NCBI GenBank assembly: GCA_030745655.1
Contig: JASLOE010000008.1
Location: 1-34,821, forward strand
Length of the DNA stretch: 34,821 nt
Direction of reading: 5' to 3'
From: Nitrososphaerales archaeon
GTDB taxonomy: Archaea > Thermoproteota > Nitrososphaeria > Nitrososphaerales > JACPRH01
Shown in pieces: positions 839 to 19,536 of this stretch (positions within the stretch are counted from its first letter, which is position 1; each line of letters opens with the position of its first letter). A program made the translations under genes and the position numbers. A model generated the notes under the pieces. That model saw only the letters and a program-made list of their open reading frames with translations, did no database searches and had not been told where the DNA came from.

Positions 839-3277
839 TTGAGAAGTATAAATACACAAAGATACTATGATTTCTACGGCATAATTGCTGTATCCATATC
901 AATACTATTGTTTCTAAATATCGTAAATCCCGTTTTCAATCAAGGAGAAAAAGTAATCATAGGTAATCCGCCCAATCTTACTCAATTCGTAAATCCATTT
1001 ATCGGAACCGGAAGTAACTCTCCTTTTGGTGGAGGTAACACTTTCCCAGGAGCTGCATACCCCTTGGGGATGGTTCAATGGAGTCCAGATACTATCTCGA
1101 ATCCCCCGGGTGGGTACTCTTATTATGATTCTATAATTAAAGGGTTCAGTTTAACACATTTCAGTGGTCGAGGTTGTCAAGTCTACCAGGATTTTCCTTT
1201 CATGCCATATGTTGGCAAACTTATTTATTCACCTGCAACTAACGGTTCTCTTTACTACTCTAATTTCTCACATACTAGTGAGATCGCACATCCCGCCAAT
1301 TATCAAGTCCACCTTGATGACCCAAATGTTACTGTAGAACTGAGCGTAACTCCTCATACTGGCATCGGAAAGTTTACGTATCCTGCTTCAGCATTATCAA
1401 CAATGATTATCAATACTGGGGGAAGTATCAATGGAAATACAAATTCCAGTGTGACCATAACACCTACTAAAAACGAGGTTACTGGTTCAGCTGAAAGCAA
1501 GGTTGGCTGTAGCGACAAAAAATATAAAATTTATTTTGCTGCCCAATTCGACCAATCTTTTTCTAGTTATGGAACATGGAGTGGAGTTTTTGTTAATCCT
1601 GACTCAACATCTAGTAGTGGTATCCAAACAGGTGCTTTCCTCGTCTTTAATATAAGTTCAATCAATGTTGTTCATGTTCAGGTCGGAGTTTCTTTTGTAA
1701 GCATCGCAAATGCCAAGTTGAATCTTGCTGCTGAGAATGGAAACTTCAATATTGATGCTGTAGTAAAAGAGGGTGATACTGCCTGGAACAAACATTTGCA
1801 GTCTATTCAGGTGCAAGGAGGAACATCTGATGAAGTGATATCGTTCTATACAGCTCTATATCATATCTTCTTTCATCCTAACATTTTCAATGATGTTAAC
1901 GGAGAGTATCTAGGTTTTGATGGAGAAATACATAGAGTCTCGAATGGTCATGCCCATTATGAGAATATTCCCGGTTGGGACCAGTATCGTACCATGATAG
2001 TATTACTCTCAATTCTTGCACCATCAGTTGTTAGTGATGTTGCTCAATCACTTGTAGATGATGCACATCAGGGTGATGGTCATATTCCACGTTGGGCACA
2101 AGCTAATACTGACTCTCATGGAATGAGTGGTGACGGTGGCAGCATTATGATCGCGCAAGCATACGCATATGGAGTTCGTAACTTTGATAAGATTGGTGCA
2201 CTGAACGCAATGATAAACGGACAACCAAACATAAGAGAAGGATTTGAGAATTATCAGAAGATAGGCTATGTACCAATTGATTCAGGACTTCCAGGAGCTT
2301 CCATCACCCTTGAATATTCAACTGCTGATTTTGCTATTGCCCAGTTTGCTCTTGCTCTTGGTTTAGAAGATATTTCATTAAATGTTTTACCGTCAAAAAT
2401 AATTTCTTCATTTGGCGGCATTAATGATTACTTTTTGTTCCTTCAAAGATCAGGTAACTGGCAGAATCTTTTTAATTCCTCAAGTGGATATATTCAACCA
2501 CGCAATATAGACGGCAGTTGGGCTTCTAATTTCACTTCCATCAGTAATGAAGGTTTTCAGGAGGGTAATTCAGCACAATATTCTTGGATGGTTTCACATA
2601 ACTTACGTGGTTTATTTGATGAAATGGGTGGTAACTCGGCCGCTATTAGTCGTCTTGATAAATTCTTCACCAAACTTAATGACGGATGGTACAGCCCTTA
2701 TGCATATATGGGTAATGAACCATCCGTTCAAGTTCCTTGGGAATATTATTTTGCTCAAGCACCTTCACGTACACAGGAGACAGTTCGATATATCCAGACT
2801 TTCTTATTCAGCAACACACCTGAAGGCCTACCTGGAAATGATGATGCTGGCTCAATGTCCTCTTGGTTTATATTCTCAACAATAGGAATCTATCCTATGA
2901 TTCCCGGAGTTGGTGGCTTTGTTATCGCTAGCCCACTTTTTGATTCGGTGACATTGAACATAGCAGGTGAACATAAAATACAGATCAATGCAGATGAGTT
3001 AAAGATCAATGCGAATGAGCTGCCGATAAATGTGACAAAAAACTCCAACGTCGATGTCTATGGTCAAAACCTTGCTGATGTTCAAATCTCTACTTACGGT
3101 CAAAGATCTGCATATGTTCATAGTCTTAAGATCAATGGTCAAAATACTACAAGTTTATGGATTCCATGGGTAATGATCCAAAAAGGTGCTACACTCAACT
3201 TCACCTTGAGCAGTAACCCTTCCAAATTGGGAAGTAATCCAGAAGATGCACCGCCTTCATTTTCTCCCCATCCATAA
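839..3277 (+). CDS. Secreted GH92-family alpha-1,2-mannosidase-like glycosidase
   Basis: This is an 812-residue protein with a single hydrophobic segment at about residues 11-30, read as a signal peptide or anchor, followed by the GH92 N-terminal block (NPFIGTG then FGGGNTFPGAAYPLGM). The catalytic domain keeps EGNSAQY (E575, the position of the family's general acid), GNEP at 625-628 and GNDDAGSMSSWF at 666-677, whose aspartates act as general base in characterised members. GH92 enzymes are calcium-dependent exo-acting inverting alpha-mannosidases, so an extracellular role in trimming mannosyl glycans is likely. The start is TTG at 839, because the ATG five bases upstream meets a stop after one codon. 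Length is typical of the family. The SDR gene follows 26-41 bases after the stop. Confidence 0.92.
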   Translation: MRSINTQRYYDFYGIIAVSISILLFLNIVNPVFNQGEKVIIGNPPNLTQFVNPFIGTGSNSPFGGGNTFPGAAYPLGMVQWSPDTISNPPGGYSYYDSIIKGFSLTHFSGRGCQVYQDFPFMPYVGKLIYSPATNGSLYYSNFSHTSEIAHPANYQVHLDDPNVTVELSVTPHTGIGKFTYPASALSTMIINTGGSINGNTNSSVTITPTKNEVTGSAESKVGCSDKKYKIYFAAQFDQSFSSYGTWSGVFVNPDSTSSSGIQTGAFLVFNISSINVVHVQVGVSFVSIANAKLNLAAENGNFNIDAVVKEGDTAWNKHLQSIQVQGGTSDEVISFYTALYHIFFHPNIFNDVNGEYLGFDGEIHRVSNGHAHYENIPGWDQYRTMIVLLSILAPSVVSDVAQSLVDDAHQGDGHIPRWAQANTDSHGMSGDGGSIMIAQAYAYGVRNFDKIGALNAMINGQPNIREGFENYQKIGYVPIDSGLPGASITLEYSTADFAIAQFALALGLEDISLNVLPSKIISSFGGINDYFLFLQRSGNWQNLFNSSSGYIQPRNIDGSWASNFTSISNEGFQEGNSAQYSWMVSHNLRGLFDEMGGNSAAISRLDKFFTKLNDGWYSPYAYMGNEPSVQVPWEYYFAQAPSRTQETVRYIQTFLFSNTPEGLPGNDDAGSMSSWFIFSTIGIYPMIPGVGGFVIASPLFDSVTLNIAGEHKIQINADELKINANELPINVTKNSNVDVYGQNLADVQISTYGQRSAYVHSLKINGQNTTSLWIPWVMIQKGATLNFTLSSNPSKLGSNPEDAPPSFSPHP

Positions 3278-3312
3278 GTGGCACAAGTTTATCATCTATC
3301 TGATTGAGATGT

Positions 3313-4278
3313 ATGGAAATGGAAAGTAGTAAATTACCTTCTGGGTTAATTAAAAAGAAGTGGGCTACAACCGATATTCCAGACCTTTCTGGAAAGACGG
3401 CTATAATCACAGGTGCCAACAGTGGAACTGGATATGAAGTATCTAAGGCTCTTGCATCCAAAGGTGCAGAAGTAATAATGGCGTGTAGAAATGTTGAAAA
3501 AGGAGAATTAGCGGCAGCCAAGATTAAGGAAGAATTTCCCAAGTCTTCTTTAAAATTTATGGTTTTAGATCTTGCAGATTTATCTTCTATTAAGAATTTT
3601 TCTAACATATTTCATGAAAAAAATGATTCATTAGATATTTTGTGTAATAATGCAGGTGTTATGGCAACACCTCAAGTTAAAACAAAGGATGGGTTTGAGT
3701 TACAGTTTGGAACAAACCATTTGGGTCATTTTGCGTTAACTGGACTTTTATTGGATAAACTTCTTGGGACTTCGAAGTCAAGAATTGTGAATGTAAGTAG
3801 CATTGCGCATATGGGGGGTAAAATTGATTTTGATGATCTTATGAATGAGAAGAAATACAGTAGGTTTCCAGTATATTCTCAAAGTAAACTTGCTAATCTA
3901 TTATTTACTTATGAATTACAGAGAAGACTCAAGGCAAACGGGTATAACACAATAAGTGTTGGTTCTCATCCTGGTTTATCTCGAACAAATCTAGGATCAT
4001 CAGGATTTGGCTATGGGAAGGGAAATATTTTGAAATCGATAATAGGTTTCTTTGCTAAACTTACATGTCAAAGTGCGGCAATGGGGGCTCTTCCAATTCT
4101 CTATGCTAGTACATCTTTAGATGTAAATGGTGGAGAATATATAGGTCCTAGAGGTTTTAGAGAATTTTGGGGTTATCCTAAGAAAGTTGAATCGAGTAAG
4201 GATTCTCACGATGAGGAAATTGCAGAGAAACTGTGGAGTATATCTACAGATTTAACACAAGTCCATTATCATTTTTAG
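3313..4278 (+). CDS. Short-chain dehydrogenase/reductase, retinol dehydrogenase-like
   Basis: This is an NAD(P)-dependent Rossmann oxidoreductase of the SDR family. Visible motifs are TGANSGTG near residues 33-40 (dinucleotide binding), CNNAG near 113, VNVSS (catalytic Ser region) and YSQSK (catalytic Tyr and Lys). The block SSIAHMGGKIDFDDL is characteristic of the retinol dehydrogenase/WW-domain oxidoreductase-like SDR subgroup. The substrate cannot be read from sequence. The frame is open from a TTG at 3304, but ATG 3313 or 3319 is the more natural start. It lies just downstream of the mannosidase on the same strand. A clear paralog lies at 22145-23002. Confidence 0.9.
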   Translation: MEMESSKLPSGLIKKKWATTDIPDLSGKTAIITGANSGTGYEVSKALASKGAEVIMACRNVEKGELAAAKIKEEFPKSSLKFMVLDLADLSSIKNFSNIFHEKNDSLDILCNNAGVMATPQVKTKDGFELQFGTNHLGHFALTGLLLDKLLGTSKSRIVNVSSIAHMGGKIDFDDLMNEKKYSRFPVYSQSKLANLLFTYELQRRLKANGYNTISVGSHPGLSRTNLGSSGFGYGKGNILKSIIGFFAKLTCQSAAMGALPILYASTSLDVNGGEYIGPRGFREFWGYPKKVESSKDSHDEEIAEKLWSISTDLTQVHYHF

Positions 4279-4341
4279 GTTGGTATCTAGAAATAAAAGA
4301 GTTCCACTTTTACAGAATCTAATTTTCTATGAATGTGATAA

Positions 4342-4557
4342 TCAGTTGGTAAAGAAGTCTAGTAATTGTGCTGCCTTGCTTGCTCGTCCCATCTCATACA
4401 TCTCTACAAAACCACATTTTTCACATATTACAACATAATATTTATGCCGCTGAATATTCAGGAAACGAGAAATGCCTACACCAGTAAGTACATGTTTTTC
4501 GATTTTGTTTTTTTTATGTCCACATTTTAAACAGCTAAATTCTTTATTATTAGTCAT
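4342..4557 (-). CDS. Small zinc-ribbon nucleic-acid-binding-type protein (DUF2082-like)
   Basis: This 71-residue protein has two CxxC knuckles, C9/C12 and C45/C48, separated by a basic stretch. The pattern CLKCG, then TGVGISRFLNIQ, then VICEKCGFVEMYE matches the DUF2082 zinc-ribbon family annotated as nucleic-acid-binding. It probably folds as a single zinc ribbon; a biological role is not established. It starts at ATG 4557 and converges with the SDR gene upstream. Confidence 0.7.
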   Translation of the reverse strand: MTNNKEFSCLKCGHKKNKIEKHVLTGVGISRFLNIQRHKYYVVICEKCGFVEMYEMGRASKAAQLLDFFTN

Positions 4558-4691
4558 TTATCTCGGATTAAAATAATACACAGTTTGCATTTAAATTATT
4601 GCTTTTTAACTACAAGAACGTGTTTCATCTTCGTGCTTGATGTTAAACTATATCTTTAAGAGATATGTTTGATTTGTAGAAGGAATTGTAA

Positions 4692-5516
4692 TTGAAGACG
4701 ATCGTAATAGGGGCTCTAGTTGCGATTATAATTGTGAGTGCTGTAGTGGGCTTTCTTGTTTTAAATTCTAGAGATGACGTAGAAAATTTAACAACAACAA
4801 CTACATCGATCAAGACTGTGGTACAATCCCTTGACGAGCAACCTAAGTCTGAACAACCGGAATCGGAGAAACCATTGCATAGTTCTCCTCTCCTTGAGAA
4901 AATAACGTTAAACATTCCATTTGACCCTGAAGACCCTATTCAAGGAATAATGCCTATGGGTGAAACGATAGAACATCCGGATGATGGAGAATTTACAGGA
5001 GGTCATCCAGGTATAGATTTTCAATGGTATTATCATCCAGATGGCCGACCAAAAGTCTTTGCTTCCGCTGCAGGAGTAATTCATCTTGTAGAACCAGATG
5101 AAGATGGTGCATTTGATGTAACCATTCTTCATGATGATTTTAACGTAATAACTGATACTGTAAAAAAAACTTACTATACATTGGTTGGTCCAATTGACTC
5201 TGATTTCGAATTCAAAGTTGGTGACAGAATTGAGGCTGGCAGTTTCTTAGGCTATGTACATAAATATCCACCAGAAAAACTTCCTCCCAATGTTTACATG
5301 ATTCATTGGGAATTTGGATTTCTGGAAACGTGGATTTCAATGGAAAGGCCTCCGCCAGAAGGTTGGCTTCACAGAAATCGTCTTTGTCCTATGACATATT
5401 TCAATGAAGAATCTAGAGAACTCTTAGAAGAAATATGGTCTAGACCTGACAGCTATGAACATAAAGACCAGTTCCCTTACTTGTGCAACAATGTTTATCA
5501 TGGAAAAAACGAATGA
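4692..5516 (+). CDS. Membrane-anchored M23/LytM-like protein with altered metal motif
   Basis: This 274-residue protein has an N-terminal transmembrane anchor (about residues 4-25) and a Thr/Ser/Glu/Pro-rich linker to about residue 70. The outer domain looks like the lysostaphin/M23 fold. H105 and D109 form the HxxxD pair (HPGID), ASAAGVI and VTILHDD match the central strands, and VGDRIEAGSFLGYV matches the typical outer strand. The last motif reads H205-W-E207, where M23 peptidases have HxH. The Glu could be an alternative ligand or mark loss of peptidase activity. Archaea lack murein, so the target is unknown. The start is TTG 4692, with AAGGAA upstream. It converges on another lysostaphin-like gene, 14 bases apart. 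Confidence 0.65.
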   Translation: MKTIVIGALVAIIIVSAVVGFLVLNSRDDVENLTTTTTSIKTVVQSLDEQPKSEQPESEKPLHSSPLLEKITLNIPFDPEDPIQGIMPMGETIEHPDDGEFTGGHPGIDFQWYYHPDGRPKVFASAAGVIHLVEPDEDGAFDVTILHDDFNVITDTVKKTYYTLVGPIDSDFEFKVGDRIEAGSFLGYVHKYPPEKLPPNVYMIHWEFGFLETWISMERPPPEGWLHRNRLCPMTYFNEESRELLEEIWSRPDSYEHKDQFPYLCNNVYHGKNE

Positions 5517-5530
5517 TTGTTCTAAATAAT

Positions 5531-6499
5531 TTAGTTTTCTGTTTTTGTGTATTTGTAGTTTGGCTTGTATTGTTCAGTTGGTAATTGGTAGTTTTCGCAT
5601 GTGAATGGGTATGCAAGTACTCCTTTTGGATAGGTTGTGTTTGGGGTGTAGCATTTCCAGAAGAAGAATGAGCCTGGTTGTACCCAGTGTAGGTACTTGT
5701 TTCCTTGTTGTACAGTTGGGTTTATGGTTGTGTGTTGTACTTTGAAGCGAAATGGTGCCATACTGTGGTTACCTACACTTCCTGCATACCCAATTAGTTC
5801 TCCCCTTTTCACACTGTATCCAAGCAAAGCATTACAAGAATCAGTGTCTCCTTTATGCACCTCTGCATCTCTGAATCCTGAATATAGGTGTCCTTTTGCT
5901 TGCCTTGTTCCTTGCCACTCTTCTATTTCGCTACAATCAGGGTTTATGTTATGGCCAAGTAAAAGGGGTGAACTAAGTAAATGGTAGGTACATATTACCA
6001 TGTTTGGCCACTCAGGACTTTCTGATTCGAAGCATAACTCTAAATCATTGTAAGGAACCTGTGTTTCATTATCTCTACTACCTCTATATTCTGCGTTCCG
6101 GTTATCAAAACCGATAAATCTCATATCAATAGGTGCCAATACAGGTTCACCATGACCTAATTCAAACTCCATACTAGTCTTAGTAGCATAAGCCGGCCAA
6201 TCTGGTTGACCACCCGTTTTAGGGCCCAATGTAATCATACCGGGGTCAGCACCAGTACCAAAAACATGCGAATGAGTGTTTATCCCATCCATACTAGACG
6301 GCGCAAAAGTAACTGCAGATGCACTTGTATCTGGTACCCCACCAGGGGCGTCATCTTCAATATCATCTTCGATTTCTGGTATTTCAATATCATCTTCGAT
6401 TTCTGGTATTGATTCTTCCTGCAAACCAGACATATATCCTACAATTACAAATGAGAAAAATGCAGCAATAACAAATAATAAGATATTTCTTGCTTTCAC
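5531..6499 (-). CDS. Membrane-anchored extracytoplasmic protein, lysostaphin-like
   Basis: This 322-residue protein starts at GTG 6499. A hydrophobic anchor at about residues 5-23 is followed by an acidic linker that contains a perfect nine-residue duplication (IPEIEDDIE twice). The outer part has strands reminiscent of M23/LytM domains (GHGEPVLAPIDM near 115-126, MVICTYHLL near 167-175, VKRGELIGYAGSVGNHS near 230-246). I do not find a full HxxxD plus HxH metal site, so catalysis is doubtful. At least six cysteines in the outer domain suggest disulfides. It lies tail-to-tail with the other lysostaphin-like gene, which suggests related surface roles. Confidence 0.55.
   Translation of the reverse strand: MKARNILLFVIAAFFSFVIVGYMSGLQEESIPEIEDDIEIPEIEDDIEDDAPGGVPDTSASAVTFAPSSMDGINTHSHVFGTGADPGMITLGPKTGGQPDWPAYATKTSMEFELGHGEPVLAPIDMRFIGFDNRNAEYRGSRDNETQVPYNDLELCFESESPEWPNMVICTYHLLSSPLLLGHNINPDCSEIEEWQGTRQAKGHLYSGFRDAEVHKGDTDSCNALLGYSVKRGELIGYAGSVGNHSMAPFRFKVQHTTINPTVQQGNKYLHWVQPGSFFFWKCYTPNTTYPKGVLAYPFTCENYQLPTEQYKPNYKYTKTEN
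6357..6410. repeat. Perfect 27-bp tandem duplication in the acidic linker
   Basis: Bases 6357-6383 and 6384-6410 are identical. The unit is nine codons, so the frame is kept and the encoded linker gains a second copy of an acidic nonapeptide. No base differs between copies, which points to a recent slippage event. Confidence 0.95.
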
Positions 6500-6521
6500 T
6501 TAATGAAATAATTCGGATGTG

Positions 6522-6532
6522 ATGTATATATC
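6522..6532 (-). promoter_or_regulatory. TATA box for the lysostaphin-like gene at 5531-6499
   Basis: On the minus strand this reads GATATATAC, about 25-28 bases upstream of the GTG start at 6499. That spacing would place the transcription start at or next to the start codon, giving a leaderless mRNA, which is common in archaea. Confidence 0.5.
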
Positions 6533-6603
6533 TCTATTCATACCTCAAGATATTATATGAAAAACATATTTTGCTGTAATTAAATAAATCCAAGAAAAAA
6601 CTG

Positions 6604-6710
6604 TGCCGAGGGCAGGACTTGAACCTGCGACGACCCGGTCTTCAGCCGGGTGTTAAAGGAATTAAGCCCTCTCTCCTTAGCCTCGTAGGATCAGGCTGAG
6701 CTACCTCGGC
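6604..6710 (-). tRNA. tRNA-Phe (GAA) with D-arm insertions
   Basis: The acceptor stem GCCGAGG pairs perfectly with CCTCGGC, with A73. The anticodon stem CCCGG/CCGGG encloses CTGAAGA, with anticodon GAA at 6643-6641. The T-arm is GCAGG TTCAAGT CCTGC. The gene is 107 bases long; a normal tRNA is about 74. The extra 33 bases lie in the D-arm. Removing 6691-6677 (15 bases) and 6670-6653 (18 bases) restores AGCCTG+GGAGAG+CA, the usual archaeal Phe D-arm. A four-base pairing, TCCT with AGGA, spans the first site. Exact splice points are uncertain by a few bases, and an alternative single-intron reading leaves no G18G19. Confidence 0.85.
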
Positions 6711-6880
6711 GCAATCTAAGGTGAGAATAAGAGAGTTATTATTTTTATCGTATGTACAAATAGATTAATTATATCTGAATGATTCTAGTAAAGTAGTAAA
6801 TCTATAATTTAAATAAAGTACAGCAATATTCAAATAAATAATTAGATTACTAAAGAATTATTGTGCCATAGCATTAATAT

Positions 6881-7258
6881 CTATTCCTGCTGAATAAGTT
6901 CTATCCAAATATCATTTGGATCCTTGATAAAGGCTATTCTTTTTAGAGAATTAGCCAGAAAATAGGGTTCTTTCGCAATTTTCACCCCCTTACGTTTGAG
7001 ATCAGCAATAGATCTATCCATGTCTTTCACTCCTAATGCTAAGTGGTCTAATTGATCTCCCTCTGAATAATCTTGTTTGTTACACCAAAATGTGAGTTCT
7101 ATTCTGTAATCAGTTTGGTCATCTTCCAGGAAAGCAATCTCAGCATTATTTTCAGGTATTTCTCTACGATTTACAAGTTTTAATCCAAAATTCTCAGTAT
7201 AAAATTTTATTGTTTCATTCATATTCTTTACTGTAATAGATGTATGAAGAAGCTTCAT
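6881..7258 (-). CDS. Glyoxalase I-like VOC metalloprotein
   Basis: This 125-residue vicinal-oxygen-chelate protein has the two beta-alpha-beta-beta-beta repeats expected for glyoxalase I. The predicted metal ligands H5, E54, H72 and E120 sit at almost the same positions as in bacterial GloA. Glyoxalase I converts the methylglyoxal-thiol hemithioacetal to the lactoyl thioester. Archaea often lack glutathione, so the thiol cofactor, or even this exact reaction, is open. Methylmalonyl-CoA epimerase is a related alternative, but the length and ligand spacing fit GloA better. It stands alone between tRNA-Phe and the peptidase cluster. Confidence 0.75.
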   Translation of the reverse strand: MKLLHTSITVKNMNETIKFYTENFGLKLVNRREIPENNAEIAFLEDDQTDYRIELTFWCNKQDYSEGDQLDHLALGVKDMDRSIADLKRKGVKIAKEPYFLANSLKRIAFIKDPNDIWIELIQQE

Positions 7259-7325
7259 AATTCACTGGATTATTATCTGTCTGTAAAAGCTTTTTGAATT
7301 AATATTTTTATGTTCTCTTAGTTAG

Positions 7326-8147
7326 CTAATCTATTGTTTTACTTTCGCTTAAAGCTGCGCAAGCCTTTCTAAGTTTATCTTCCTCTACTGGATAATTAAG
7401 TTCAACCTTAAAACTTGTAGTCTTAGGATCAAATGTAAGAAGTATCCCATAATACGTCTCCCGTATTGTTAGACTCATTGCGTCTTTCCATTCCACACTT
7501 TTTAGGTAGCTATCCCATTCTTTTCCAGTTTCTTCTTTAGGTTTCTCAAGAATTTTATCTTTCGGAGCAAATAGAGTCAATTTATTATTAGATATTTGTA
7601 CAAAAGAAATTGTAGGTTGCTCATCATTTCCAATTGATGGGCTAAGTATTTTATTACCCAATTTATCTGAATTAGTTTCTATTTTGAACTTCAAGCTGGT
7701 CTCATCATCTAAAATATCTTTGATTAATGATATATCAGATATTGTTTCCTTCACTTTCTCTTCGATAATTGCACCGTAACCAATACAATTAACATATGTT
7801 AATTTGCCTACCTGTAACCCATGTTTTACAGAAGGCTCCAAAACTTTATGATAATGTTCTATCATACTGCCAAGGTCCTGGCCATAGATATTCTTGAATC
7901 TACTGTCCCTCAATTGATGACCATCTTGACTTTGAACAATAAAGTAAACTATCAAACTATCGATATTAGGTGATGAATACACCTTTTCCGAGGAAACATT
8001 CTTATCAGTATCGTCATTGTCGAAGAAAAGTTTCCTTTTTGTATCGAAACACTTACCTATCGATCCGGTTACCTTTCGCATCTCACCAAACTTGGTTTCA
8101 AATTCTTCAAGGTACTTCTCAGTTTCTATGATCTTTTCTTCATTCAT
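7326..8147 (-). CDS. Uncharacterised protein coupled to a Xaa-Pro peptidase
   Basis: I do not recognise this 273-residue protein. It is soluble (no hydrophobic segment long enough to span a membrane), charged and mixed alpha/beta by eye. A helical N-terminus (to about 30) precedes the main body, which contains QVGKLTYVNCIGYGAIIEEK near 113-132. A C-terminal region (SLTIRETYYGILLTFDP near 225-241) looks like beta strands. Its ATG overlaps the TGA of the upstream peptidase gene by four bases (ATGA), so the two are probably translationally coupled and act in the same process. Confidence 0.75.
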   Translation of the reverse strand: MNEEKIIETEKYLEEFETKFGEMRKVTGSIGKCFDTKRKLFFDNDDTDKNVSSEKVYSSPNIDSLIVYFIVQSQDGHQLRDSRFKNIYGQDLGSMIEHYHKVLEPSVKHGLQVGKLTYVNCIGYGAIIEEKVKETISDISLIKDILDDETSLKFKIETNSDKLGNKILSPSIGNDEQPTISFVQISNNKLTLFAPKDKILEKPKEETGKEWDSYLKSVEWKDAMSLTIRETYYGILLTFDPKTTSFKVELNYPVEEDKLRKACAALSESKTID

Positions 8148-9247
8148 ATCTCTAGCATCTCCCTTCCCGTGGATGTAAGGATTTCACAATCTCCCTTGCG
8201 TATCAAAACATCATCTTCAATTCTAACTCCTCCAAATCCTGGTAAATAGATACCTGGCTCAATCGTAAAAACCATTCCTTCTTCTAATGTGAACTTTGAA
8301 GTATTGCTTAAAGTTGCACCATCGTGTACTGCTAATCCAAGAGCATGTCCTGTTGAATGAGTGAATTCTTTCCTGAAACCTTTAGAGGCTATAGTGTTCA
8401 CAACTTTTCGATGCACTTCACTTGCTTCAATACCTGGTTTCAACATGTCTAGGACTACATTGCTTGCTTCAAAAACTGCATCATAAATCTGCCGCTGCTT
8501 ATATGAAGGACGGCCTACAACTAACGTTCTTGTTAAATCTGCACAGTAGCGACAATTTCGAGCTCCAAAATCGAATAATGCAAAATCACCGGACTTTAAC
8601 TCAGCATTTCCCCCTAGATAATGAGGTTCAGCAGTGTTTACTCCAAAAGAAGTAATCGGTTCGAATGCAGTGGTGGCCCCTTCCTTCTGAATTTGATAAC
8701 TTATCTGGGCCTTCACTTCACTTTCAGTCACATTATTTCTTAAGATTGAAGGAATATTCTTCCATACCTTTGTTGTTATCTCTGCAGCTGTTCTTAGTTT
8801 TTTTATCTCTTCATTATCTTTTACAAGTCTAGCTTCTGTAATAGCTTTACTCACATCCAATATTTTCACATTTGGTAATGTTTTTTTAAGAATAAGAAGG
8901 TCTTGGTAGGTAAGTTCACGTGAGTTTACCCCTATTTTATCTATGTTTGTCCCTATCTTCTTCAGAATCATTTCTTTTTCCTTTGAGTCTTTAAAAATTG
9001 TAGTTTTGAACCTGGTCGATCCTTCTTTTACACTTTCTTCTTCAAGCTTTGATGTATATAGTGATGCTTCGCCGTTTGGGTATGCAAGAAAAATCGAGTT
9101 CTCAAAGATTCCCGACTCGAGATTTGTAAAGTAGAAAAAAGAGAGATCTATATGTGGTTCTACTGAGTTTTTTATGAATATTGCATCTGGTCTTTCATTC
9201 TGTATTTTCTGGTAAACTCTTTGGATACGTCGAGAGGTTTGGTTCAT
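8144..9247 (-). CDS. pepQ: M24-family Xaa-Pro aminopeptidase/dipeptidase
   Basis: This is a 367-residue pita-bread-fold metallopeptidase. An N-terminal creatinase-like domain covers roughly residues 1-140. The C-terminal catalytic domain carries all five dinuclear metal ligands: D226 (FDFGA), D237 (ADLTRT), H301 (STGHALGL), E330 (TIEPGIY) and E344 (VRIEDDV). It cleaves Xaa-Pro bonds in peptides, either as aminopeptidase (PepP) or dipeptidase (PepQ); sequence alone does not decide which. It starts at ATG 9247, lies 100 bases downstream of aIF5A on the same strand, and is coupled to the unknown gene that follows. Confidence 0.92.
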   Translation of the reverse strand: MNQTSRRIQRVYQKIQNERPDAIFIKNSVEPHIDLSFFYFTNLESGIFENSIFLAYPNGEASLYTSKLEEESVKEGSTRFKTTIFKDSKEKEMILKKIGTNIDKIGVNSRELTYQDLLILKKTLPNVKILDVSKAITEARLVKDNEEIKKLRTAAEITTKVWKNIPSILRNNVTESEVKAQISYQIQKEGATTAFEPITSFGVNTAEPHYLGGNAELKSGDFALFDFGARNCRYCADLTRTLVVGRPSYKQRQIYDAVFEASNVVLDMLKPGIEASEVHRKVVNTIASKGFRKEFTHSTGHALGLAVHDGATLSNTSKFTLEEGMVFTIEPGIYLPGFGGVRIEDDVLIRKGDCEILTSTGREMLEI

Positions 9248-9347
9248 CTAGTTATCTTTACAATTCGGATATTAAAAAAGTGTTAAGTTTATTCTCAATA
9301 ATGCATTTAGAATTTGATATTGGCCAGTTCATTTTAAACAATATTAG

Positions 9348-9743
9348 TCAGTTGCGTATCCGAACTATCTTTTGTTTATTGAGGGCTTTCCAATATTCTA
9401 CCTCAACTCCATTCTCAAGCTTATCTGCGATATTTTTATCATCTGGTAAATTAGCTTCAAAAACCTCGAAAGTTTCCATATCCATAAGCTGGACACCTGA
9501 AGACGATCGTGATATAACTTGGCCAGTTCGCTTGTCTATCATAGGAATTTCAACATTTGCAGAGACAGGTGAAACTAAACTTCTCTTCACACCATCAAAT
9601 AATCCAATACCTACAACTCTAGCTTTGGCTGCACCATGCTTACCCGGTTTTGACTTATCAAAAGAAACTATTTTGCATGGTTCTCCTTCAATAATCAAAT
9701 AAGATCCTGTTTTAACACTTCCTAGATCTGCTGGTTTACTCAA
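9348..9743 (-). CDS. eif5A: Translation factor aIF5A (hypusine-containing)
   Basis: This 131-residue protein is the archaeal homolog of eIF5A/EF-P, which binds the ribosomal E site and relieves stalling, for example at polyproline. The loop SKPGKHGAAKARV carries K35, the lysine modified to deoxyhypusine or hypusine. An SH3-like N-domain and an OB-fold C-domain follow in the usual order. The start is TTG 9743, which gives the expected N-terminus; the only nearby ATG (9763) is out of frame. A minus-strand TATA-like CTATATAGG lies about 40 bases upstream, leaving a short leader containing AAGG. Confidence 0.95.
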   Translation of the reverse strand: MSKPADLGSVKTGSYLIIEGEPCKIVSFDKSKPGKHGAAKARVVGIGLFDGVKRSLVSPVSANVEIPMIDKRTGQVISRSSSGVQLMDMETFEVFEANLPDDKNIADKLENGVEVEYWKALNKQKIVRIRN

Positions 9744-9782
9744 ACCTTGATTCCTCTTATCATTGAAGGTTTTAAGCTCCTC

Positions 9783-9791
9783 CTATATAGT
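9783..9791 (-). promoter_or_regulatory. TATA box for aIF5A
   Basis: The minus-strand sequence reads CTATATAGG, followed upstream by pyrimidine-rich sequence. The centre is about 44 bases from the TTG start, predicting a leader of roughly 18 bases. It lies in the 98-base divergent gap shared with NAD kinase. Confidence 0.5.
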
Positions 9792-9813
9792 TTGTGTGCG
9801 ATTTCAAAGAAGA

Positions 9814-9820
9814 TTAAATA
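9814..9820 (+). promoter_or_regulatory. TATA box for NAD kinase
   Basis: TTAAATA lies about 25 bases upstream of the TTG start at 9842, so transcription would begin at or next to the start codon (leaderless). This supports the TTG at 9842 over the later TTG at 9857. Confidence 0.45.
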
Positions 9821-9841
9821 AAGTGTAGATTAGAAGGTATA

Positions 9842-10675
9842 TTGGTAACGTTACCATTGAATAATAAAGAGATATCCATAGCGATACTCAGTAAAAAAGA
9901 ATCCATTACAGTAATGGATGTAGTTACATCTCTGAGAAAAGATCTTGAACGTAAAAAATTCAAAGTCTACTCTGATGAAACATCTATACAAGATTCTGCT
10001 AATTGGTCGAAAGTTATAGATGATGTGAAAAAAATGAATCCAGATTATATTGTGTCAGTAGGTGGTGATGGCACTCTGTTATGGGTGATAAGATCTATGG
10101 ATGATGAGACTCCTGTTCTAGCTGTTAACGTAGGTGGTAGAGGAATTCTATCCGAAATCTCGCCGAATAATATCAAAGAATCAATTAAAAAACTCCGAGA
10201 GAATCAATATCTAATAGATTCACGCAATAGAATATCTGTATCAGTAAACGGAAAAACTCTTCCTCCTGCCTTGAATGAGGTCTATGTAAATAGAATATCA
10301 CAGACAAGAACTAGTACTTACACTATGACAATTGGTGGGTACAAAGTAAAACAAAGAATGGACGGGCTGATGGTTTCTACATCAACAGGTTCAACAGGAC
10401 ACTCCTTATCATTTGGAGGACCATACATTCATCCAGATTCAAATGCCTTTCTTGTATTGATGGTGGGTTCTATCGACCGATTACCTCCTATTGTCTTACC
10501 GACTAAACCGATAGAAGTAATTTCTGATCATGATTCAAGTGTTACTGTAGATGGTCAAGAAGAAATTCTCGTTAAAGCTTCGGAACAAATTGTGATTACA
10601 AAACATAATCGAAATGCCAGATTTATACGATTTGAAAATACAGGATTCCAACAACTTGAAAAGATATTTTTATAA
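9842..10675 (+). CDS. nadK: NAD kinase
   Basis: This 277-residue protein phosphorylates NAD to NADP with ATP or polyphosphate. Family motifs are all present: GGDGT at 74-78 (catalytic D76), NVGGRGILSE near 96, ALNEVYV near 143-149 (NAD-binding Asn-Glu), DG at 174-175 and STGSTGHSLS at 181-190. The C-terminal DGQEEILV block closes the beta-sandwich. Length matches the family. The start is TTG 9842. It heads a plus-strand run with Nob1 and MoaE, although the 221-base gap to Nob1 suggests a separate promoter for the latter. Confidence 0.95.
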   Translation: MVTLPLNNKEISIAILSKKESITVMDVVTSLRKDLERKKFKVYSDETSIQDSANWSKVIDDVKKMNPDYIVSVGGDGTLLWVIRSMDDETPVLAVNVGGRGILSEISPNNIKESIKKLRENQYLIDSRNRISVSVNGKTLPPALNEVYVNRISQTRTSTYTMTIGGYKVKQRMDGLMVSTSTGSTGHSLSFGGPYIHPDSNAFLVLMVGSIDRLPPIVLPTKPIEVISDHDSSVTVDGQEEILVKASEQIVITKHNRNARFIRFENTGFQQLEKIFL

Positions 10676-10896
10676 TTCATTTAAAAAATTAAATTAAAAA
10701 ATGTCGCGATTGCAATACTTTAAATTGGTTTGATTTATTTGATATTACAATATTACAACATTTTGATTTAACAGGCAAATTATATTGAAAATGAACACAA
10801 TACACCAATTCTTCGGAGGGATTTCAAGTAAATCCTGATTTACATAAGCGTTTACAAAAAGAAAATGCGCTAGTCGGATCATCAATTTCCAAAGAG

Positions 10897-11409
10897 ATGG
10901 TAGTACTTGATGCTACTGCCTTTTATGCTGATGTTCCATTTAGCAGTTTGGAAACATATTATTCAACCGATTCTGTTATTGAAGAGGTATCACATAAAAA
11001 AATTCGGAAAACGTATATTGAAGGACTTATTGAAGCAGGCAGACTAAGAATATATTCGCCTTCAGAACAATATCTAAAAAAAGTGAATAATGTTGCCAAA
11101 GAAAGTGGTGATTCATCAACTCTTTCAAAACCAGACATTACAGTTGTAGCATTAGCTCTAGAATTCCAGAAAAAAGGAAACCAGGTAATGATCATTTCTG
11201 ATGATTACTCTGTTGAAAACCTTTCTAAAATACTTGATATTCGAATTGTTTCAGTCATGACCCAAGGAATAAAAAAAATGGTGAAATGGCAGAAATATTG
11301 CTCTGGATGTGGCAAGGTCTTTCACAATGGCAAAAGTCGAGAGTGTGATGTTTGTGGGTCATCTCTCAAGAGGAAATTCAAGACTGCAAACAATTTAAGA
11401 CAAGCTTAA
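10897..11409 (+). CDS. nob1: Nob1-type endoribonuclease, PIN domain plus zinc ribbon
   Basis: This 170-residue protein starts with a PIN nuclease domain whose acidic residues (D5, E29/E30, D80, D102) fit the metal-binding active site. It ends with a zinc ribbon (C135, C138, C150, C153). This architecture is that of archaeal Nob1, which cuts the 3' end of pre-16S rRNA during small-subunit maturation. ATG 10897 gives the normal N-terminus (VVLDATAF). The same frame stays open about 34 codons upstream without an ATG, GTG or TTG. A strong GGAGGG motif at 10815-10820 lies in that leader with no start codon at the usual spacing. Confidence 0.9.
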   Translation: MVVLDATAFYADVPFSSLETYYSTDSVIEEVSHKKIRKTYIEGLIEAGRLRIYSPSEQYLKKVNNVAKESGDSSTLSKPDITVVALALEFQKKGNQVMIISDDYSVENLSKILDIRIVSVMTQGIKKMVKWQKYCSGCGKVFHNGKSRECDVCGSSLKRKFKTANNLRQA

Positions 11410-14454: not shown

Positions 14455-14636
14455 AACATGCCATTACCTCGAGGAAGAGTTAATCCATAAAGTCGTGAGA
14501 ATATAAAGTAAACCACTTTCTTCCTTCATCATCAAACTATAACACTGTTATATTATATATTTTTTATATTTGTCTAAACCTAGATATCATTACTACTACA
14601 AGCGGTGCCTTCCACTTTTGCCTTATTAGAAGGAAG

Positions 14637-16007: not shown

Positions 16008-16430
16008 TTACCTTTCACTATTTTTTCTCAGAAGTTCCATCAAACCTGGATGAACTGATATATACGGTTGTTTCTCAGCAACAATTTGAAGTGCCTCATC
16101 CACATCTAAACCCTCTTTCTCAGAAAGATAACTTACTGCAATGAATGGACTTCGACTCATACCGGCACAGCAGTGCACCAATATATTACCGATTTTCTTC
16201 TGCTCATGTACTATTTCTAGAATATGTATAATTGTTTTCCAATCATTTTCTTCACCATCTATAAGTGTAAAATGGAACTGTTCCACAGTATCAATTTTTG
16301 GATCGTAATGCTGGTGAACATTTACAATAGTTTTTACTCCGAGCTTCTTTAACATGTTCTGGTCTGAACCTGATGTGCAGCTTCCGATATAGAACCAAGG
16401 GAGAATTTGAATTATCAAACTGATTATCAT
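16008..16430 (-). CDS. Dual-specificity protein phosphatase
   Basis: This 140-residue protein has the Cys-based phosphatase signature HCCAGMSRS (nucleophile C87, R93), preceded by a likely general-acid region LIDGEEND around D58-D63. The order of elements (WFYIGS, then GVKTIVNV, the acid loop, the P-loop, a helical end) is that of small dual-specificity phosphatases. It should dephosphorylate Ser/Thr/Tyr residues or another phosphomonoester. Similar compact enzymes are found in many archaea. The start is ATG 16430; MIISLIIQIL could be a small extension. Confidence 0.88.
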   Translation of the reverse strand: MIISLIIQILPWFYIGSCTSGSDQNMLKKLGVKTIVNVHQHYDPKIDTVEQFHFTLIDGEENDWKTIIHILEIVHEQKKIGNILVHCCAGMSRSPFIAVSYLSEKEGLDVDEALQIVAEKQPYISVHPGLMELLRKNSER

Positions 16431-16533: not shown

Positions 16534-16549
16534 GTGGACCGGGGGGATT
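16534..16549 (-). repeat. Copy of tRNA-Ala 3' end, att-like
   Basis: GTGGACC followed by six G and ATT repeats the plus-strand sequence at 17919-17935, which is the 3' acceptor strand and part of the T-stem of tRNA-Ala(CGC). The copy has one G fewer. It has the same orientation and lies 1.4 kb beyond the tRNA 3' end, which is where an element integrated into that tRNA would leave its second attachment site. No full tRNA can be built around it. Confidence 0.6.
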
Positions 16550-16586
16550 AATACTTGAAAAGGGTATAAATCTCTTAATGAATGCA

Positions 16587-16704
16587 GGCCCACTGGGATT
16601 TGTTCCCAAACAGGTTCAAACCCACAACTGGTTGCAGTTAAATCAAACCAAGTAAGACGAAGATTAGAATTTGAAGCTAAATAGATTGTAATCCTAGTTG
16701 GGCC
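16587..16704. ncRNA. Possible structured RNA closed by GGCCCA/TGGGCC
   Basis: GGCCCA at 16587-16592 pairs with TGGGCC at 16699-16704. Inside are a perfect five-pair hairpin (TGGGA/TCCCA, 16594-16608), a second stem (TGGTT 16629-16633 with AACCA 16646-16650) and a weaker third (TTAG/CTAA). The shape recalls a multi-armed RNA, but no anticodon or T-loop fits tRNA rules on either strand. The strand is not determined. Confidence 0.3.
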
Positions 16705-16774
16705 GATATTACTGGCAATCCGATTCGAGTGTTTGACTGTCTCCGAATTAAGATGAGTGTTTCTTGTCAGAATC

Positions 16775-16793
16775 CTAGTTGTGCAACAACTAG
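16775..16793. terminator. Hairpin at the 3' end of the release-factor-like gene
   Basis: CTAGTTG and CAACTAG form a perfect seven-pair stem with a five-base loop. The TAG stop codon of the gene at 16790 lies in the stem. It could act in termination or mRNA 3'-end protection. Confidence 0.4.
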
Positions 16794-17812
16794 TATCTTA
16801 ACAGTGCCACCAGGTTGCCAAACTTATGCAGTCTTCTTCTTGCAGTAGCGTCTGTTATGAACTCGATGGTTGAGCCTTTTCTCTTCGCAAGTCCTATCAT
16901 TCTTCTAATTAACGTGTTTTCCTTCGATGAAGCTGCGTAATAGTCCGCAGCTAGGAACAACGTCTCCACAGTTCCCGCCTTGATTTTCTTCTCTATCTCC
17001 TCGTTACGAGTAATAACTAGACCATCCTTTGCCGGAGTAGCCAAATCTGCCAAGAGCTTAAGCTCATTCTTCTTCCGTACTTTGTCTAGAGTAGCAATTA
17101 CGAGTCGGGCAATCTCCTTTCTCGGGGTGGAGAAGCATATGTCATCGACAATTTTTGTCCTCTTTGCAAGCTTACTATCCATAACTCGATGGAATTTTTT
17201 TTTGGCAAGTCCATTTCCGCCTAGGAGAATGAGTTCTATGTTGTCATCTTCGAGGCCTGCCAGATGCTTCTTAACTTTGTTAAAGAAATATTTGATCTTG
17301 ATATCTCTATTCTGCTGGAATCTCTTCTGGCTCCAGCCACCCTTGCTGTGTCTACCTCTTAGGTATATTCTTTCATTTATCTCCTCGACAAGTTCACTTC
17401 CACTATAAACCTCGATCTTTGCTCTCTTATGATCCATTGTAATCAATACGACCCGGTAACCAATCTCTAGGATATTCTTTAGAGGCTTAAGGTATGGCTT
17501 GCGATAAATTACATGGAGAAGAGGAACATCTTTGGATATACTTACATGTTTTACAATATTCTTTTCTCCCTTAGACCATCCGAAGAAACATAGACTGCCT
17601 GCATGATACCTCATTTTAGCGAGTCTAAGCGAAATGCCATTCCGCACACCTACAAGACCCTTAACAATATCCTTTTCAAACAGAATCTTTGTTCCCTCAC
17701 CTACCTCATATGATGGCAAGTAGAGTGAAAGAACTGGTGATTCAAAGTCTTTCAATTGCAGAGCGAATCGGTTGACCTTGTACCATTCTTGAGCACTTAA
17801 TGTATCAAGCAT
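16790..17812 (-). CDS. eRF1-superfamily, Vms1/VLRF1-like peptidyl-tRNA hydrolase
   Basis: This protein has about 340 residues. An N-terminal domain (SPVLSLYLP near 26-34) resembles domain 1 of aRF1 but is short and lacks an obvious NIKS stop-codon loop. A middle eRF1-type domain contains GRHSKGGWSQKRFQQ near 154-168, where canonical aRF1 has GGQ; GGW-SQ is the variant seen in Vms1-like release factors (VLRF1), which cut peptidyl-tRNA on stalled ribosomes. The C-terminal part is an eRF1 domain-3 fold (IKAGTVETLFLAADYY). A rescue role is inferred, not termination. ATG 17812 is preferred over TTG 17815. By eye the gene is more GC-rich than its neighbours. It lies inside a possible tRNA-bounded segment. 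Confidence 0.7.
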   Translation of the reverse strand: MLDTLSAQEWYKVNRFALQLKDFESPVLSLYLPSYEVGEGTKILFEKDIVKGLVGVRNGISLRLAKMRYHAGSLCFFGWSKGEKNIVKHVSISKDVPLLHVIYRKPYLKPLKNILEIGYRVVLITMDHKRAKIEVYSGSELVEEINERIYLRGRHSKGGWSQKRFQQNRDIKIKYFFNKVKKHLAGLEDDNIELILLGGNGLAKKKFHRVMDSKLAKRTKIVDDICFSTPRKEIARLVIATLDKVRKKNELKLLADLATPAKDGLVITRNEEIEKKIKAGTVETLFLAADYYAASSKENTLIRRMIGLAKRKGSTIEFITDATARRRLHKFGNLVALLRY

Positions 17813-17918
17813 CAATCAACTTCTTTCTCTCCTTCCTTAAGTATCCTTCTTATCACCTGAAAATATTATGTACCTGTTTTTGGGAGCATTATTGCTTAGA
17901 TTTGTACTCTAATAGGAG

Positions 17919-17935
17919 GTGGACCGGGGGGGATT
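17919..17935 (-). repeat. tRNA-Ala 3' end, second copy of att-like repeat
   Basis: GTGGACC, seven G, ATT. It forms the native 3' end of tRNA-Ala(CGC) and is the partner of the copy at 16534-16549. Confidence 0.6.
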
Positions 17936-18012
17936 TGAACCCCCGACCTTCCGCGTGCGAGGCAGATACTATATCAGTTTCTTGACTGTTTCTACCACTG
18001 AACTACCGGCCC
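17920..18012 (-). tRNA. tRNA-Ala (CGC) with 21-base D-arm intron
   Basis: The acceptor GGGCCGG pairs with CCGGTCC, with the alanine G3-U70 pair and A73. The anticodon stem TCTGC/GCGGA encloses CTCGCAC with anticodon CGC at 17959-17957. The T-arm is GGGGG TTCAAAT CCCCC. The gene is 93 bases, 21 more than the mature form. The extra bases (about 17989-17969) interrupt the 3' strand of the D-stem after GAA, at about position 24/25. The insert contains CAGT/ACTG, able to form a small hairpin. This is a non-canonical position; exact ends are uncertain by a few bases. Confidence 0.88.
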
Positions 18013-18063
18013 ATATGTTGAACATTTGTCATTTGTGATTTACGGTTTCATATATAAACAGAA

Positions 18064-18150
18064 GAGGTTCAAAGTGTTCAGCACGTATTCTTCATCCCGT
18101 AATGCGGTCAGATTGCCCGTCGATGCTGCACTGAACACCTGAAGAACCTC
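18064..18150. ncRNA. Candidate structured RNA, long stem with internal loop
   Basis: GAGGTTC (18064-18070) pairs with GAACCTC (18144-18150), then an AAA/CTGAA internal loop, then GTGTTCAG (18074-18081) pairs with CTGAACAC (18131-18138). The 49-base apical region can form further short stems (CATC/GATG, CCG/CGG). It is more GC-rich than the flanks. It lies between tRNA-Ala(CGC) and tldE. I do not match it to SRP, RNase P, 5S, C/D or H/ACA RNAs. The strand is undecided. Confidence 0.45.
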
Positions 18151-18186
18151 AAATCGATAGATTGAATTATTTACTATTTACAGTTT

Positions 18187-19536
18187 TCAACCACTAGTAA
18201 CTGAAATGTCTTCTACCTTGATGTATGGTGCAAGAATGTTGAATATTTTCTCTCTATCCTTTGAAATACCTGAAATCTTAAATAATGTCTCGAAAATATT
18301 TCCTGCAATAAGGGTCTCCCTCAACGGATGAATTCGTTCTCCACTAATTATCAAGTGACCACCTTTTACTACTCCTGAAAAATCACCACTAACAGGATTA
18401 ACATTTCCGGAAAATCTCGTAACAAGAATTCCTTTCTTAACTTCACTTAGGATATCATCAAAATTCGAATTTCCTTCTTTGAAAATAAGGTTCGTTGCTC
18501 CAACACCGGGGGAAGACTCTTCATCTCCAGATGCATGACCTGTGCTGTTTACCTTATCACGGCAAGCAGTGTATGTGTTGTATAGATATGATTTGAGAAT
18601 TCCCTTATTGATAATGTCTAATTTCTTATGTGGAACCCCTTCACGATCAAAACTGGAAGCTGACAATCCATCAGACCAAGTTGCATCATCAGTTATTGTC
18701 AGTTCCTTACATGCAATTTCTTTTTCCATTTTCCCAACAAGACTGGATCGTCCTTTCTGAACATTATTCGAATTAACAGAATTAACTAGTGTTGGTAGAA
18801 TGAGTTCAGCAACTGCATGTGGACTCAAGATGAGTGTTCCTTTGAAAGGCTGGCATTTCTTTGAGCCAAGAGAATTTACTACATTTTCAGCAAAATTTCT
18901 TGCCGTACTCTCTACTTCAATATCTTTCAAATGATGACTTCCACCAAATTGAAAATCAAAACTGGAAACCTCTTCTCCATCTACCGCCATTCCCATAATA
19001 TACCAAGTGAAGCTACTGATCATCTCTACACATTCAACACCATTAGAGTTGACTACTGCAATTGAGTTAAGTGAGTTATTGAATGCACCACTGTCAACAG
19101 TTACCCGTTTATCATATCTTTTTGCAGTTTTCAGCATCTCAACAGCATTCTTAACTGAATCTTCTGATTTGAAGTATTGTGCCTCTCGATCATAAATACC
19201 TGATAATTTCTGTGGAACTGTCATTTTTGGAAGAATATTATATTGATCATATGAACCTTTGGAAGCGATCTTGATGGATGCATCTACAGCTTCATTAATT
19301 TCTTCTCGACATAACATATTCACTGATGAAAAACCAAGAGCTCCATTTTTTATGACCCTAATCCCTATCCCTGATCCTTGGTGAAACTTGCCAAGCTTTA
19401 CATCATTTCTCTCAATTGACACCTCACTCTCAACTGATGAAACACTATACACTTCAGCACTATCCACTCCTTTTTTGATGGCGGTAATAACTGCTAATCT
19501 ACATGATTCAATAAGTTCATTTTCTGATATCTTCAA
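18187..19536 (-). CDS. tldE: TldE/PmbA-type subunit of TldD/E metalloprotease
   Basis: This 449-residue protein is the non-metal-binding partner of TldD. It shows the family blocks RNDVKLGKFHQGSGIGIRV near 38-56, SASSFDREGVPHKKLDI in the second half, and HASGDEESSPGVGATNL. The expected HExxxH is absent, as in other TldE proteins. TldD/E is a cytosolic heterodimeric protease that removes peptides, known in bacteria from microcin and CcdA processing. It starts at TTG 19536, immediately after the tldD stop (TAATTG), so the two are one transcription unit with coupled translation. Confidence 0.92.
   Translation of the reverse strand: MKISENELIESCRLAVITAIKKGVDSAEVYSVSSVESEVSIERNDVKLGKFHQGSGIGIRVIKNGALGFSSVNMLCREEINEAVDASIKIASKGSYDQYNILPKMTVPQKLSGIYDREAQYFKSEDSVKNAVEMLKTAKRYDKRVTVDSGAFNNSLNSIAVVNSNGVECVEMISSFTWYIMGMAVDGEEVSSFDFQFGGSHHLKDIEVESTARNFAENVVNSLGSKKCQPFKGTLILSPHAVAELILPTLVNSVNSNNVQKGRSSLVGKMEKEIACKELTITDDATWSDGLSASSFDREGVPHKKLDIINKGILKSYLYNTYTACRDKVNSTGHASGDEESSPGVGATNLIFKEGNSNFDDILSEVKKGILVTRFSGNVNPVSGDFSGVVKGGHLIISGERIHPLRETLIAGNIFETLFKISGISKDREKIFNILAPYIKVEDISVTSG

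Follow-up and report, generated by a model that had tools for sequence, protein, structure and literature searches.

In the DNA of a Nitrososphaerales archaeon, a relative of the ammonia oxidisers, the 3' end of a tRNA-Ala gene occurs twice with a gene for a release-factor-like protein in between, and the question raised by this locus is how that gene came to stand there. The window, i.e., the whole stretch of 34,821 nucleotides that was analysed, is contig C64 of a 65-contig MAG (G000), compared here with a genome of the same genus (G001) and with three of the same family (G002-G004). The segment from 16534 to 17931 is probably a relic, left by a small tyrosine-integrase element in the tRNA-Ala 3' end, in which a single laterally acquired cargo gene survives. 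The observations behind this reading are the repeats, the absence of the gene in relatives, the junction of a tRNA-Ala and a dual-specificity phosphatase (DSP) gene in G001, the integrases at the tRNA-Ala ends of relatives, the codon usage of the gene, and the loss or retention of motifs in its protein.

The 13 bases of GTGGACCGGGGGG occur without a difference at 16534-16546 and 17919-17931, in identical orientation and 1385 bp apart from start to start, as described in a sequence-only reading of this DNA, which had noticed the tRNA-Ala(CGC) 3' end repeated 1.4 kb further on; at up to one mismatch, the only other match in the whole window is the 3' end of tRNA-Ala(GGC) at 14636. None of 100 dinucleotide shuffles matched the pattern by chance and none of 3000 simulated 5-kb stretches held such a repeat, which rules out a chance origin. 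The flank just past the 16534 copy, on the host side, displays a weak similarity that 55 of 2000 shuffles equalled. The same reading had held the shortness of the repeat to be its weak point, a reservation that can be withdrawn, since published thaumarchaeal att sites start at 8 bp, with a median of 17 bp, and make a repeat of 13 bp ordinary; moreover, 39 of these 68 sites lie in tRNA genes and, with a single exception, at their 3' ends (PMC6563490). Only one sizeable gene, the release-factor gene, stands between the copies (Table 1), and neither a three-frame reading nor tblastn with nine integrases detected an integrase or other mobility gene in the segment, both as that reading had it; therefore, what remains would be a relic and not an intact or working element. 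An Rfam search across the segment returned tRNAs only.

Table 1. Features of the segment and of its flanks, by position in the window.
Feature	Position	Strand	Basis
Host flank: dual-specificity phosphatase (DSP)	16008..16430	-	G001 orthologue adjoins tRNA-Ala(TGC)
Boundary copy 2 (attR-like): truncated tRNA-Ala 3' end, 13 exact bases, then ATT, one G fewer	16534..16549	+	sequence, shuffles, G001 comparison
Non-coding rest of the segment	16550..16789	.	no match in the loci compared
Three-domain aRF1 paralogue (VLRF1/baeRF-like), 341 aa, without NIKS and YxCxxxF	16790..17815	-	ORF, profile searches, alignment
Release loop GGWSQ, protein residues 159-163	17327..17341	-	alignment
Leader from the tRNA to the release-factor gene, with TATA-like AGTACAAATCTA	17816..17918	-	resembles the integrase-gene leader on C27
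Boundary copy 1: GTGGACCGGGGGG, tRNA 3' end plus one base	17919..17931	+	exact-match search, shuffles
tRNA-Ala(CGC) with intron-like insertion; 3' end is the boundary (attL-like)	17920..18012	-	sequence; kept behind TldE in G001-G004
Host flank: TldE (PmbA/TldD family)	18187..19536	-	always upstream of tRNA-Ala(CGC) in G001-G004

The enclosed gene looks foreign by its GC3 and codon usage. Specifically, its GC content is 41.4% against 36.7%, its GC3 is 43% against 26.6 +/- 2.5% (z = 6.5), and its codon usage is the most deviant in the window, the reference for both GC3 and codon usage being the 25 other ORFs of the window; the impression of a more GC-rich gene, first gained by eye, was well founded. 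The gene is present in one copy in G000 and is absent from G001-G004, where the only matches (E about 1e-6 to 1e-10) are at the level of the aRF1 paralogue. Several families of the order do have orthologues, as expected if the gene were ancestral to the chromosomes of the order, stood beside the tRNA by accident and had been lost from the sister genomes, but its absence from four family members and its outlying codon usage render this history highly improbable, as does the tree, in which family f14 holds two distant versions, one of them (possibly mis-binned) 82% identical to a copy from f9, a family read as Nitrosopumilaceae on account of its size and gene content, and 33-34% identical to those of its own family.

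The two flanks of the segment lead to different places in the sister genome. In all four of G001-G004, the gene after TldE is the intron-bearing tRNA-Ala(CGC), interrupted at the identical place by the intron-like insertion because of which ARAGORN and Rfam misname the gene; G001 thus has this pair without the release-factor gene and, beyond it, two Lrp/AsnC-type regulators and a D-3-phosphoglycerate-dehydrogenase-like gene, not DSP. The DSP side is instead collinear with G001 contig C55 (sulfite-reductase-like gene, tRNA-Ala(GGC), h14833, DSP; about 80-95% protein identity), where an intact tRNA-Ala(TGC), oriented like the 16534 fragment and with a 3' end that reads GTGGACCGGGGGGGATT, precedes DSP by about 300 bp, so that the fragment occupies the place of a whole tRNA-Ala gene. 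On contig C62 of G000, tRNA-Ala(TGC) has the G001-type upstream neighbourhood (tRNA-Thr, tRNA-Pro, a DtxR-like regulator, and synthetases) on one side and the regulator/dehydrogenase genes on the other; relative to G001, the flanks in G000 are reciprocally exchanged exactly at the 3' half that tRNA-Ala(TGC) and tRNA-Ala(CGC) have in common, 35 identical bases. As a separate observation, the presence of introns in tRNA-Ala(TGC) varies within the genus, an extra intron-like insertion near the 5' end being present in G001 and on contig C27 and absent in G000 (L101:10274-10346, L117:7863-7935). The interval between TldE and tRNA-Ala(CGC) encodes a conserved structured RNA in five of the five family genomes (window 18050-18165, minus strand; L064:5950-6070, L065:2885-3010, L066:5545-5665, L067:6540-6660), with a 12-bp closing stem in which three pairs are maintained despite changes on both sides and with an invariant core, ATCGACGGGCAATCTGACC, that is kink-turn-like by eye; an Rfam search with it gave no match.

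Because the TGC and CGC flanks are exchanged, a single plain insertion into the CGC gene, matched by one collinear empty site, does not describe the locus. The proposal of an integration into a tRNA gene is upheld by the absence of the gene in relatives, by the intact tRNA-Ala that adjoins the 16534-side flank in G001, and by the integrases that use tRNA-Ala 3' ends, while its choice of the CGC gene as the target is at odds with the position of the fragment at the tRNA-Ala(TGC) site of the sister genome. No single collinear empty site was found among the genomes compared, G001 pairing the flanks differently, and the tRNA-Ala(TGC) loci of G002 and G003 yielded no shared neighbours that would polarise the exchange. 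Recombination between attL and the free end of the other tRNA-Ala, homologous recombination, or an assembly mis-join would each give the pattern; chromosomal inversions caused by tyrosine recombinases are documented in archaea (PMC8371274).

Homologous recombination between the TGC and CGC genes, together with an illegitimate break that left a tRNA end by DSP and a gene that came separately to the breakpoint, would need no element at any time and would fit both an exchange that coincides exactly with the 35-bp shared 3' half and a segment without an integrase; it is unlikely, however, because the gene is a GC3 outlier with copies of the tRNA 3' end on either side, exactly in the arrangement of att sites, and because the same tRNA genes bear integrase elements in relatives. 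A mis-join of C62 and C64 at the tRNA-Ala repeat, with a true order of X, tRNA-Ala(TGC), release factor, fragment, and DSP, is in keeping with an exchange that falls exactly within the 35 bp common to both tRNA genes and with a MAG of 65 contigs, at least one of which (C27) is a stray, but the final k-mers of assemblers are usually longer than 35 bp, and we consider this artefact quite unlikely. It is in any case compatible with a relic, as it bears only on which tRNA-Ala precedes the gene; if true, it would make the locus a straightforward insertion into tRNA-Ala(TGC), which would strengthen the integration reading.

The 3' ends of tRNA-Ala genes are integrase sites in this clade. An integrase ORF starts about 60 bp behind tRNA-Ala(TGC) on contig C27 of G000 (L116), and the contig ends 225 bp further. 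On the upstream side C27 has 99.7% identity to G001, whereas its identity to C62, which it duplicates, is about 83%; because C62 is G000's own orthologue, C27 is best read as a stray contig from a G001-like strain. The leader of the release-factor gene aligns with the leader of this integrase gene with a score of 21, reached by 6 of 5000 shuffles, against scores of at most 15 for the other tRNA-Ala flanks, although shared promoter sequence may account for part of the likeness. At the window's own tRNA, G004 differs from the near-empty G002 by a 2.1-kb insertion exactly behind tRNA-Ala(CGC), the two genomes being 90% identical up to the tRNA end and 86% identical from about 70 bp past it, and the insertion holds a stop-broken integrase fragment, a membrane ORF, and a VapBC-like pair. 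This toxin-antitoxin-type pair, at L067:8221-8859, is recorded here as an observation in its own right. In G017, a 9.07-kb integrase element behind tRNA-Ala(GGC) is bracketed by a 12-bp repeat in the same orientation, CCTCCCGGTCCA, with the core seen in the window, and carries ATPase- and helicase-like ORFs (named by eye) between the repeats; this element looks complete (L169, G017:C7, about 2258-11401). The integrases were assigned to one family by PHROG integrase matches of about 1e-4 to 1e-7, by sub-threshold Phage_integrase matches, and by conserved catalytic-type residues (R, RPYxLR, GH, and Y), and 5 of the 13 members lie just behind a tRNA (Ala in three cases, Gly, and Leu).

With an integrase so placed, the segment might be a satellite or cassette that still moves in trans through elements like that of C27. 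Both att-like ends remain, the tRNA genes concerned carry a matching integrase on C27 and in G004, the window leader resembles that of the C27 integrase, and the gene family often changes place; on the other hand, the two copies differ by one base (G6/G7) and have only 13 bp in common, the genome holds one copy, and no phage, plasmid, or viral-contig form was found, which makes continued movement very unlikely. Among the three possibilities raised at the outset, namely a relic, a satellite served by an integrase in trans, and a mobile cassette, the relic fits best, and mobility of the gene family finds its support elsewhere, at loci without att sites.

For the relic, we infer the following course. 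A small tyrosine-integrase element would have entered a tRNA-Ala gene at its 3' end, with the complete tRNA remaining at attL and a fragment of its 3' end at attR; the integrase gene would later have been lost, whereas the single cargo gene, a laterally acquired aRF1 paralogue, would have survived, and the flanks of the TGC and CGC loci would also have been exchanged at their shared 3' half, via the integrase, homologous recombination, or an assembly mis-join. The segment resembles the integrated and cryptic integrated elements of Thaumarchaeota (Krupovic et al. 2019, PMC6563490) in its site at a tRNA 3' end, in the direct repeat of the same orientation, in the short att (13 bp here), in the use of intron-bearing tRNAs, and perhaps in having relatives without the insert, G001 pairing the flanks differently. 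It differs from them in its size of 1.4 kb and its one gene without an integrase, the smallest element of that survey being 2.6 kb long and having an integrase.

The protein is predicted to be an aRF1 paralogue that is blind to stop codons and has retained the release loop. The eRF1_2, baeRF10, and acVLRF1 profiles match all 16 aligned homologues and eRF1_3 matches 11 of them, the window protein scoring 25.1 bits against a cut-off of 25.8. Its best relatives of solved structure are aRF1 (1.8e-15) and Pelota (2.6e-13), whose three-domain layout it has, followed at a distance by Balon (1.2e-5), and it matches Balon-type profiles more weakly than those of aRF1, Pelota, baeRF10, and acVLRF1. The Pfam acVLRF1 model is exceeded (50.5 bits, cut-off 27.1), while the scores fall below the cut-offs of the NCBIfam acVLRF1 model (27.3 against 125), of TIGR03676 for canonical aRF1 (64 against 235), and of the NCBI Rv2629 family for Balon (21.8 against 320). 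Alignment of the homologues with the aRF1 of the same genome revealed the absence of the NIKS segment, of YxCxxxF, and of the zinc minidomain, which, together with a patchy distribution and changes of place, sets the family apart from aRF1; the C-terminal part aligns to the aRF1 C-domain and an N-terminal extension is missing. The AF2 model was poor (pLDDT 58, pTM 0.42). The release loop varies among close orthologues (window 17327-17341, minus strand; L073, L074, L075, L077), with GGWSQ in the window and G014, GGQSA in G067 and G077, and GGQSQ in Nitrosopumilaceae; a Gln is kept throughout, and the candidate catalytic Gln would therefore have shifted place.

The label of Vms1/VLRF1-like eRF1 homologue given by the sequence-only reading is approximate. 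The aVLRF-1/Vms1-like clade (Burroughs and Aravind 2019, PMC6514570) shares with the protein the eRF1 domain 2, a GGxSQ loop, an archaeal range, and a place accessory to aRF1. However, aVLRF-1 proteins have an N-terminal coiled coil and lack the C-terminal Pelota domain (PMC6514570), whereas the window protein keeps a C-terminal domain of the Pelota/eRF1_3 type and has no long N-terminal coiled coil, so that its layout is related but distinct; moreover, its close orthologues include GGQSA besides GGQSQ. The hibernation factors Balon/Rv2629 are likewise aRF1 paralogues without the stop-codon motif, with matching profiles, but Balon has neither NIKS nor GGQ (PMC10901736), unlike the window family, which retains the loop Gln and scores far below the NCBI cut-offs. 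To judge from its homology, the protein would most likely bind the A site of stalled ribosomes and hydrolyse peptidyl-tRNA, i.e., act in ribosome rescue; hibernation is the second-best candidate role.

Within Nitrosopumilaceae, the family has a patchy distribution and an unstable location. It is present in 82 of the 250 genomes of f9, some copies being stop-broken, and 244 of 300 pairs of f9 loci have no flanking gene in common. For aRF1, in an almost identical set of genomes, this is so for 21 of 231 pairs, although its flanks were taken shorter; being an essential gene, aRF1 is a strict control for place-changing. Among 20 copies from the Nitrosopumilaceae family, 5 have a same-strand tRNA within 170 bp before the start (Ser in three cases, Arg, and Lys), a post hoc count that is at most suggestive of an association with tRNAs, although no tRNA-repeat brackets and no integrase of the same kind were found within about 8 kb of any of the 20. 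Mobility of the family is thus supported by other genomes in which att sites are absent. A broader reading, in which the stop-codon-blind aRF1 paralogue would be cargo of tRNA-site elements across Nitrososphaeria, would land repeatedly behind different tRNAs (Ala here; Ser, Arg, and Lys in Nitrosopumilaceae), and would help cells or elements to survive stalls caused by attack on tRNAs or ribosomes, is tentative and on balance doubtful.

Elements at tRNA sites are already known in this archaeal group, and the published survey mentions no release factor as cargo, the term "release factor" being absent from its main text (PMC6563490). To judge from the flanks exchanged between two tRNA-Ala ends, integrase sites may also shape the order of the chromosome in the group, and the natural change between GGQ and GGW in close orthologues would allow the catalytic Gln to be identified directly. 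Lastly, if the family is mobile, archaeal ribosome rescue would be in part an accessory and exchangeable trait, in agreement with the proposal that ribosome-directed conflicts are what drives rescue factors (PMC6514570).
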